From IMG/VR virus record IMGVR_UViG_3300031251_000042, positions 1 to 44,918 of that record: a DNA stretch of 44,918 bases. One strand, 5' to 3'. The notes below the pieces were generated by a model. It saw only the letters and a list, made by a program, of their open reading frames with translations. It ran no database searches and had not been told where the DNA came from. This DNA is from a virus. How positions within the stretch are numbered: position 1 is the first letter of the stretch; the number at the start of each line of letters is the position of its first letter. Of the stretch, positions 6,345 to 8,230 are shown piece after piece. The position numbers and the translations under genes are program-made.

Positions 6345-6514
6345 GTGAGCCTGTAATTCAAAAAAAGAAACATAAACCGAGCCTTTGGCAGAAGGGCTAC
6401 AAGCCGTGCCTAAAAGGCTGCGGAAAACTTGTGATGAATCGAGACATGATTTGTCAGCCTTGCAAAAAGATTCCAGCTCGGAATGGCATCCAGGTGAAAG
6501 GGGCTACTGGTTGA
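6341..6514 (+). CDS. Small cysteine-rich zinc-binding-like protein
   Basis: The protein has 57 residues with two cysteine pairs (CLKGC and CQPC) about 17 residues apart, in a basic context, consistent with one zinc knuckle. The ribosome site AGGAGG is ideal and lies inside the end of rusA, fixing the start at 6341. The function is unknown; a nucleic-acid-binding role is likely from charge. Confidence 0.6.
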   Translation: MSEPVIQKKKHKPSLWQKGYKPCLKGCGKLVMNRDMICQPCKKIPARNGIQVKGATG

Positions 6515-7179
6515 GAGAGCGCTTGACGCCAGATCAGGCCATCAAGTTTTTAAAGCGGGCTAAACTGTCTGCGAGTCGAATGGGATGGGTTAACGATGCT
6601 GAAGATATTGCTCAAGAAGTGCTTCTCAAGTTCTGCGAAGGCAGGGGTCAACACCAGACCATTGATCAAGCAGTTGGAGATCTTATTCGAGGAAAATATC
6701 GAGTGCTTGGGTTTAGTCGCAATGAACATCGGAGACAGCGGCTCCGAATGGTCCCAGTGGAGGACGCACGAGGCGTTGCGGCTCCTGAGGCAATCGGAAG
6801 AGATTTTGAGAACATTATTGGAAGCCTGCAAGGGTTAGAGAGGGTCATGGTTAAGCTGCGTTATGAGTGGGGATTCACAGCACGGGAGATTGCAGATTGT
6901 TTCGGAGTTACTGAGAGCCGGATTAGTCAAAGGCTCAAGGGAATACAAAAAGGCTTATCACTCGAAATGGCGCTCGATGAACAAAGACCGGATCAGGTTG
7001 TACGCTCAAAAGCAGAACTTGAAGCCTGGCGTGAGAGAGAAAAGGAACGCCTCGTGTCGGGCTTACTTCCGCCGGCGACCGCCGGGATGGAATGCCCAGA
7101 GGATCGCGAAATGGCGGAGGGAAAATTCTGGGAAGTGGAAATTGATCATGGCGCGAGCTTCCCGGAATGGTTTGCATAA
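6511..7179 (+). CDS. Phage-encoded sigma-70-like factor
   Basis: The protein has 222 residues from a TTG start that overlaps the previous stop (TTGA, 6511-6514). A region 2-like segment (MGWVNDAEDIAQEVLLKFCE, about 24-43) and a region 4-like HTH (LRYEWGFTAREIADCFGVTE, then SRISQRLKGIQKGL, about 116-149) are visible. It could redirect host RNA polymerase to middle or late promoters. The last 70 residues have no family likeness and overlap another long frame (6977-7402), so the true C-terminus is uncertain. Confidence 0.65.
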   Translation: MRERLTPDQAIKFLKRAKLSASRMGWVNDAEDIAQEVLLKFCEGRGQHQTIDQAVGDLIRGKYRVLGFSRNEHRRQRLRMVPVEDARGVAAPEAIGRDFENIIGSLQGLERVMVKLRYEWGFTAREIADCFGVTESRISQRLKGIQKGLSLEMALDEQRPDQVVRSKAELEAWREREKERLVSGLLPPATAGMECPEDREMAEGKFWEVEIDHGASFPEWFA

Positions 7180-7402
7180 GCGCTGGTACGCGAAACATAG
7201 AATCGAAAAGTTGAGGAAAACGCATGAAAGAAGCAAAAAACGAAATCCACTCCACGGGCTTACAAGGCTCAGGCAACAAGCAGCCGCCGGCCATATCGAC
7301 ATCGATGCCTATCTCAGTGAGCTTGGCAGAATACTTGTTCTCGCTCGCGAAGGAAGTGACCAAAACGGAAAAGACGCCCAGGACAGCGCGTGCGGCGTGT
7401 GA
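6977..7402 (+). CDS. Basic Lys/Arg-rich protein overlapping the sigma-like gene
   Basis: The frame is open from 6863, and I place the start at the internal ATG 6977. The product has 141 residues, strongly basic (MNKDRIRLYAQKQNLKPGV, then RIAKWRRENSGKWKLI), and resembles the basic helical region that precedes HNH domains in phage nucleases, but no HNH site follows. It overlaps the sigma-like gene by 203 bp and the next gene (7224) by 179 bp, each in a different frame. Either it is dual coding or one of the frames is not used. No clear ribosome site is seen. Confidence 0.4.
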   Translation: MNKDRIRLYAQKQNLKPGVREKRNASCRAYFRRRPPGWNAQRIAKWRRENSGKWKLIMARASRNGLHKRWYAKHRIEKLRKTHERSKKRNPLHGLTRLRQQAAAGHIDIDAYLSELGRILVLAREGSDQNGKDAQDSACGV

Positions 7403-7463
7403 GTGTGCTCGAGAGATTCACAGGCTTCTTGATCTTCAGCAAAAGGCAAAAAATAGGGTTTAA
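7224..7463 (+). CDS. Small hypothetical phage protein
   Basis: The protein has 79 residues. The C-terminal helix (TPRTARAACECAREIHRLLD) resembles a family of small phage early proteins of unknown role. A good ribosome site (GAGGAAAA) precedes ATG 7224. It ends six bases before the methyltransferase start. Confidence 0.55.
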   Translation: MKEAKNEIHSTGLQGSGNKQPPAISTSMPISVSLAEYLFSLAKEVTKTEKTPRTARAACECAREIHRLLDLQQKAKNRV

Positions 7464-7468
7464 AAAGG

Positions 7469-8230
7469 ATGCTTAATGGCTTGGATTTATTTAGCGGAAT
7501 CGGCGGGTTTTACCTCGGCTTATCTCCATGGGTATCCCCAGCCGCTTATTGTGAGGCAGACCCATACTGCCAGGGAGTCCTTTTGTCGCGAATGGCATCG
7601 GGGCAAATCCGAAAGGCTCCAATATGGGATGACGTTAGAACCCTTAAACGCTCCGACCTGGAACGAACTCCCATTGACATTATCGTCGGAGGATTCCCGT
7701 GCCAGGACCTTAGCGTTGCAGGAACTGGAAAAGGCCTGGGAGGAGAGCGAAGTGGACTATTCTTTGAAGTCATCCGATTGGTTAGCGAGTTTCGACCTCT
7801 CTTCGTTTTCTTGGAAAACGTCCCAGCTATCACTGTTCGAGGGCTTGATCGAGTTCTCTTGGAGTTCGCTGCGCTCGGGTACGATTGTCGATGGACGGTT
7901 GTATCAGCCGCAGAGGTTGGAGCCGTCCATATTCGTGAACGATGGTTCCTTCTTGCCTACGCCAACCGCATGCGACTACGGCAAGAACGTTGGGAGAAAA
8001 TCGGACGGGATAACGCCGTCGGGAAGAGACCGTTGGAGCATCACAGTTCGGGCCAAACGAGGGGAATTGCCCGGACACCCAAAGGGGAAATTACACCCAG
8101 AGTGGATCGAGCAGGCGATGGGATATCCTGTTCGGTGGACCGAGCTAGAGGATTGGGCAATAGCGTGGTTCCGGTTCAAGCGCGTGAAGCGTTCATGCGG
8201 TTAATGGGTTTAACAACTTTCCGGGAATAA
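7469..8230 (+). CDS. dcm: DNA (cytosine-5) methyltransferase
   Basis: The protein has 253 residues and methylates cytosine C5 using S-adenosylmethionine. Conserved motifs in order are: I (LDLFSGIGGF, 5-14), IV with catalytic C78 (GGFPCQDLSVAG), VI (ENV, 117-119), VIII (HIRERWFLLAY, 154-164) and X (RGLGNSVVP, 227-235). The target-recognition region between VIII and X is short (about 60 residues). It probably protects phage DNA from host restriction. A second 242-codon frame lies wholly inside it (see 7476-8204). Confidence 0.92.
   Translation: MLNGLDLFSGIGGFYLGLSPWVSPAAYCEADPYCQGVLLSRMASGQIRKAPIWDDVRTLKRSDLERTPIDIIVGGFPCQDLSVAGTGKGLGGERSGLFFEVIRLVSEFRPLFVFLENVPAITVRGLDRVLLEFAALGYDCRWTVVSAAEVGAVHIRERWFLLAYANRMRLRQERWEKIGRDNAVGKRPLEHHSSGQTRGIARTPKGEITPRVDRAGDGISCSVDRARGLGNSVVPVQAREAFMRLMGLTTFRE
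7476..8204 (+). CDS. Alternative-frame protein nested in the methyltransferase gene
   Basis: This frame is open for 242 codons across nearly the whole methyltransferase gene. It reads like a family of phage proteins usually found beside cytosine methyltransferases: SRARTLALQELEKAWE, SWKTSQLSLFEG (112-123), GSFLPTPTACDYGKN (157-171) and KLHPEWIEQAMGYPVRWTEL (205-224). A start at ATG 7629 (residue 52) is as likely as 7476. The function is unknown; a DNA-modification partner is inference. If real, the two proteins are encoded on the same strand in different frames. Confidence 0.5.
   Translation: MAWIYLAESAGFTSAYLHGYPQPLIVRQTHTARESFCREWHRGKSERLQYGMTLEPLNAPTWNELPLTLSSEDSRARTLALQELEKAWEESEVDYSLKSSDWLASFDLSSFSWKTSQLSLFEGLIEFSWSSLRSGTIVDGRLYQPQRLEPSIFVNDGSFLPTPTACDYGKNVGRKSDGITPSGRDRWSITVRAKRGELPGHPKGKLHPEWIEQAMGYPVRWTELEDWAIAWFRFKRVKRSCG

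Follow-up and report, generated by a model that had tools for sequence, protein, structure and literature searches.

The closest described relatives of the locus analyzed here are C5-cytosine DNA methyltransferases that are divided between two polypeptides. Two such enzymes are M.EcoHK31I and M.AquI, the YGGCCR and CYCGRG methyltransferases, respectively. The beta subunit of M.EcoHK31I was reportedly found by Lee, Kam and Shaw in 1995 to be encoded within the alpha gene in another reading frame. To our knowledge, bacterial viruses offer few examples of long same-strand overlaps whose two products are both conserved and can each be assigned a function. The larger M.EcoHK31I polypeptide carries motifs I–VIII and X together with the predicted TRD, and the smaller carries motif IX (PMC3404938). 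M.AquI is likewise split, its second chain holding motif IX (PMC3404938), and it is well established that the parts of split C5 methyltransferases can complement each other (PMC3404938; PMC3439449). Our literature search for overlapping methyltransferase genes in phages returned nothing on point.

The window (the whole stretch of DNA analyzed) is a 44,918-base virus record in which a family search identified a terminase, a lambda-type portal, a tape measure protein and a phage integrase, genes which indicate that it is a tailed phage or prophage. Comparison of the window DNA with E. coli genomes gave no match. Its methyltransferase gene, here called alpha, occupies positions 7469..8230 of the plus strand (frame 0, 253 aa, ATG start). 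A second ORF, beta (7476..8204, 242 aa), also with an ATG start, is nested within alpha in the +1 frame of the same strand. Based on these coordinates the two overlap by 729 nt, or 96% of alpha, and the beta ATG lies 7 nt after that of alpha. Three further ORFs on this strand overlap one after another at 6385-7463: a sigma-factor-like gene (6385-7179; phrog_1740, 3.6e-9, Sigma70_r4), an Arg/Lys-rich ORF (6863-7402) and a 79-aa ORF (7224-7463), the latter two having no match in the family search. We consider it very likely that the alpha and beta genes, one nested almost completely in the other, code for the two subunits of a C5-cytosine DNA methyltransferase similar to M.EcoHK31I. Alpha, the putative catalytic subunit, would bind S-adenosylmethionine, hold the catalytic cysteine with motifs I–VIII and X, and attack the cytosine. 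Beta, the putative specificity subunit, would recognize the target site and supply the TRD and motif IX.

Alpha matched PF00145 (1e-36) over profile positions 2-175 of 324 only, as well as phrog_363 (1.4e-60), and M.HhaI was among its closest solved relatives, matching the first 180 residues with a profile E of 2e-32. Five motifs expected of a C5-cytosine DNA methyltransferase were found on its plus-strand frame: motif I (DLFSGIGG, 7484..7507), motif IV with its PCQ and the catalytic cysteine (GGFPCQD, 7688..7708), motif VI with its ENV (FVFLENV, 7802-7822), motif VIII (RERWFLLA, 7934..7957) and motif X (LGNSVVP, 8153..8173). Residues G75, F76, P77, C78 and D80 of motif IV were invariant in 66 alpha proteins, and G230, N231, V234 and P235 of motif X were nearly so. 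A preliminary description of this DNA had reported 242 open codons in a second frame of a methyltransferase gene having all key motifs. The ORFs lie where it placed them, and motifs I, IV, VI, VIII and X are indeed in alpha, but motif IX and the TRD, which PF00145 enzymes have on the same chain, are both in the +1-frame beta. Only ~60 residues separate motifs VIII and X in alpha. In an AlphaFold2 model of alpha (mean pLDDT 84) residues 190-215 were disordered, and the confidently predicted catalytic fold is complete except for this gap, which is at the place of the TRD.

The window beta matched phrog_1008, "DNA methyltransferase" (1.3e-15), as did the others among the 72 beta proteins aligned, and the PHROGs entry is annotated only as methyltransferase. 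A paper found under "phrog1008" was a false match, as it concerns phrog_10089. Searches with the window beta in Pfam and NCBIfam found no family, a beta profile had no match in PDB sequences, and no relative was found when bacterial genomes were scanned with the beta core; the scan with alpha found 22 loci. AlphaFold2 modeled beta alone poorly (pLDDT 60, best over residues 190-220), and poor prediction may be expected for half a domain. A structure search with this model (Foldseek/VIA) gave no significant PDB match; the top Foldseek rows were DNMT3 chains, with E about 8, and were discounted as evidence.

The identity of beta was indicated by single-chain phage enzymes. In these (e.g., Saroj gp68 and prophiFVLQ01-1 gp6), one frame runs from alpha motifs I–VIII through the beta TRD/IX segment to motif X where detected, the motif X match being solid in the former and weak in the latter. 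A beta segment at 7944..7988 on the plus strand, GSFLPTPTACDYGKN, aligns with four single-chain phage methyltransferases (L139, L141, L146, L150) in the interval from motif VIII to motif X, where these have their TRD region. Further along the same strand, beta motif IX, KLHPEWIEQAMGYPVRWTEL (8088..8147), lies over a stretch that in the alpha frame is a poorly conserved linker. The C-terminal part of beta aligns with the TRD/IX segment, and exactly that part is missing from alpha. The order of these segments in the single-chain enzymes suggests that beta is the missing specificity half of the methyltransferase, and, as beta holds the TRD and motif IX absent from alpha, that the pair represents one split enzyme.

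Relatives were gathered from viral contigs by separate searches with alpha and with beta, and layouts were called by searching alpha and beta profiles against the ORFs of annotated relatives. A tally over 184 loci, which includes some loci twice (the same contig via both searches) and in which a few layouts may reflect sequence errors, gave 144 nested, 12 partly overlapping, 10 single-chain, 6 with a beta fragment lacking motif IX and 11 with alpha only. The nested arrangement of the window was observed in Spikelee, Lily and S-H1, in Vibrio, Acinetobacter, Stenotrophomonas, Sulfitobacter and Bacteroides phages, and also in Leptospira, Bacteroides, Lacticaseibacillus and Enterobacter plasmids, the Enterobacter hormaechei plasmid having a 341-aa alpha. 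A different layout was observed in RemusLoopin, Sebastisaurus, Samy and Medusa, where alpha terminates beyond motif VIII while the +1 ORF runs on through the TRD and motif IX; in the first three, motif X is next in this +1 frame. Among 13 distant bacterial methyltransferases of single-chain length (26-36% identity), no motif-IX beta was found in the +1 frame, and in the 12 examined for stops this frame had 3.5-10 per 100 codons. Two loci had other arrangements. In Mycobacterium phage Llama (L120, 1501-2260) the alpha and beta frames are exchanged within motifs VI-VII through a change of frame by one base; two "DNA methylase" pieces are annotated there, and the two-piece match is common to several related mycobacteriophages. 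In a Vampirovibrionales sequence (L164, 2872-3678) the N-terminal half of alpha is joined in frame to the C-terminal half of beta, and this appears to be a frameshifted or newly fused copy.

The starts of the two genes are also paired. In 65 of 79 loci the +1 frame has an ATG 11 nt ahead of motif I, and in 69 of the 79 a +1-frame stop occurs within the 27 nt upstream. The alpha codon supplying the AT of this ATG encodes Asn, Tyr or His, and it is xAT in 65 cases versus xAC in 3, the alpha residue being the same either way; the beta ATG is thus maintained by a bias in codon usage. A deeper beta start occurs in some lineages (e.g., Lily LILY_63, at +184). Upstream of the window genes, at 7454..7468 (plus strand), candidate paired ribosome-binding sites were read from the sequence: alpha has TAGGG 10 nt ahead of its ATG, and beta has AAAAAGG 7 nt ahead of its own. 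This suggests a separate site for each start. Ribosomes would then start at either of the two ATGs 7 nt apart, and both chains would be made from one mRNA in related amounts.

A different possibility is that the locus makes a single-chain enzyme by programmed frameshifting, in which alpha is read to motif VIII, a +1 shift leads into TRD/IX, and a shift back provides motif X. This would yield the same motif order as in the single-chain relatives, and the Llama and Vampirovibrionales loci resemble alpha/beta frame swaps. Nested loci, however, would need two opposite shifts. The beta frame also shows conservation ahead of any shift point, across alpha motifs VI–VIII, a part that the frameshifted product would not use, and beta has a conserved ATG of its own. 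Because of this upstream conservation and separate start we regard a single chain made by frameshifting as unlikely.

Marginally less probable still is that beta is made as a separate regulator or anti-restriction partner instead of the TRD/IX half. Most single-chain enzymes lack a counterpart of the first ~125 residues of beta, SWKTSQLSLFEG among them, which speaks for this reading, but the C-terminal alignment described above covers just the part that alpha lacks.

The preliminary description had also supposed that the overlap might couple the methyltransferase to a partner. The partner would be the enzyme's own TRD and motif IX and not an independent protein. Under the two-subunit reading, the alpha and beta chains would assemble into one active methyltransferase. 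Phage methyltransferases are known to protect phage DNA from host restriction, and on this basis the enzyme most likely acts on a specific site in the phage genome, whose methylation would confer such protection. We infer translation of both chains, assembly of the heterodimer, its activity and its protective role.

Whether the +1 frame is itself under selection was analyzed across the relatives. Each of the 80 loci recruited by alpha alone also matched beta, without exception in the +1 frame with respect to alpha. As a shadow control, synonymous codons were shuffled within each alpha gene, so that the alpha protein and codon usage were unchanged. Of 88 distinct loci, 87 had an open +1 frame throughout the core (alpha codon 56 to 27 codons before the end), where 1.6 were expected; the N-terminal part (alpha codons 4-55) was open in 74 against 21.7, and the +2 control frame in none. 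For the window alpha, the core +1 frame was open in 0 of 500 synonymous shuffles, with 5.6 stops expected and 0 seen. The similarity of homologous +1 frames to the window beta was greater than in all 40 alpha-preserving shuffles in 85 of 87 loci. These data uphold the proposal of the preliminary description that two conserved proteins are encoded in the same DNA: stops in the second frame are nearly absent from the core in homologous loci, and the similarity is not mere out-of-frame annotation of alpha, given its excess over the shuffles and that beta-frame proteins have also been annotated separately.

The constraint on beta was not uniform. In a regional test over 87 loci, in which a locus was counted when it beat all 30 alpha-preserving shuffles, 42 loci did so for beta residues 1-20, 15 for residues 21-66, 57 for residues 67-125 (over alpha motifs VI–VIII), 50 for residues 126-200 and 83 for residues 201-242 (motif IX). 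These counts suggest that residues 21-66 are mostly just kept open and that the remainder of beta is constrained in sequence. Part of beta may be only linker, as residues 21-66 show little sequence constraint. Two regions of the plus strand are conserved in both frames: the DNA of alpha motif I codes for the conserved beta N-terminus MAWIYLAES (7476-7502), and the stretch 7802..7844 codes for alpha motif VI and beta SWKTSQLSLFEG (7809-7844). In a +1 overlap the third codon positions of alpha coincide with second positions in beta codons, and third-base identity was therefore determined at alpha fourfold-degenerate codons between diverged relatives (random expectation 0.25). It was about 0.35 in alpha codons 31-75 and at the C-terminal end (241 onward, mostly past the beta stop), 0.43-0.55 in codons 76-165, 0.58 in codons 1-15 (over motif I and the beta N-terminus) and 0.87 in codons 211-225, over beta motif IX. 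Constraint at the DNA level thus peaks where alpha is a poorly conserved linker.

The least probable alternative, that nothing is translated from the +1 frame and that alpha codon conservation and base composition leave it open and similar-looking, can draw on the partial inflation of +1-frame profile scores by alpha's own conservation (alpha-preserving shuffles yield 17-49 bits with the beta profile over conserved motifs in several genes) and on residues 21-66 being barely above shuffle, but it is opposed by the openness of the core, the real scores above all shuffles in 85 of 87 loci, the constraint peak exactly at the least conserved part of alpha, motif IX being in frame in single-chain relatives and the start-codon bias. 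Overall, both frames are under selection, the start-codon pair is conserved, and beta is homologous to the TRD/IX segment of the single-chain relatives. Beta is a real second gene and not a shadow of alpha, and selection maintains the double coding in far more than 100 related phages and prophages.

Beta was absent from most of the records that we looked at. Beta-frame proteins have separate annotations as LILY_63 of Paenibacillus phage Lily ("g62 internal gene"), NVP1291O_11 of a Vibrio phage and SAMYPH_50 of Samy. In two Vibrio phages (L128, 850-1548; L134, 1205-1903) beta is annotated as a "hypothetical protein" and the alpha methyltransferase is omitted. In RemusLoopin (gp35; L119, 1465-2361) and Samy (SAMYPH_50; L130, 994-2112) the annotated second "DNA methylase" begins late; the annotated starts are probably wrong, because the conserved beta region reaches upstream into the first gene. 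Our analysis corrects these annotations, both where beta is missing and where it stands in place of alpha.

We tentatively propose, with considerably less confidence than in the two-subunit assignment itself, that these loci form a phage-wide family in which an ancestral methyltransferase was split by reciprocal frame changes. Almost every base would code for both subunits, whose starts lie 4-7 nt apart and which would evolve under mutual constraint at the DNA level, and the locus could shift among a single chain, a partial overlap and full nesting. More speculatively, two compensating frameshifts around TRD/IX may have turned a single-chain gene into a nested locus, each frame then being extended over the other. 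The opposite direction is hinted at by weak +1-frame beta remnants in single-chain phage enzymes. In four of seven of these (L139, L140, L141, L146) a +1-frame stretch like the N-terminal half of beta scored above all 100 alpha-preserving shuffles, some narrowly, and such fragments are possible fossils of the nested state. As the overlapping genes code for the two halves of one enzyme, the catalytic and specificity chains can both be altered by one and the same base change. The 144 nested loci (some counted twice), with the partly overlapping and single-chain relatives, represent a natural series for studying how overlapping genes originate and resolve.

Among annotated phage genes, LILY_62/LILY_63 of Paenibacillus phage Lily resemble the window pair in that GenBank lists an internal gene in the +1 frame of a cytosine methyltransferase; they differ in the later start (+184 versus +7 in the window), and GenBank assigns the internal gene no function. 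Saroj gp68 and prophiFVLQ01-1 gp6 share the alpha motifs and the beta TRD/IX segment, but as one chain in one frame. M.AquI is best matched by the RemusLoopin/Samy layout, which has motifs IX and X in the second chain, whereas the window keeps motif X in alpha and its genes are nested instead of consecutive. The window resembles M.EcoHK31I in having motifs I–VIII and X in the large chain and IX in the small chain, and in a small subunit lying in an alternative frame inside the large-subunit gene, as reportedly holds for M.EcoHK31I. It differs in that a TRD-like segment is in beta, while the predicted M.EcoHK31I TRD was placed in the large subunit. Compared by motif partition and layout, the window is best called a variant of the M.EcoHK31I kind. 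What is new relative to M.EcoHK31I is the near-total nesting (beta covering 96% of alpha), the paired starts (7 nt apart), the wide and mostly unannotated spread, and the occurrence of three layouts.
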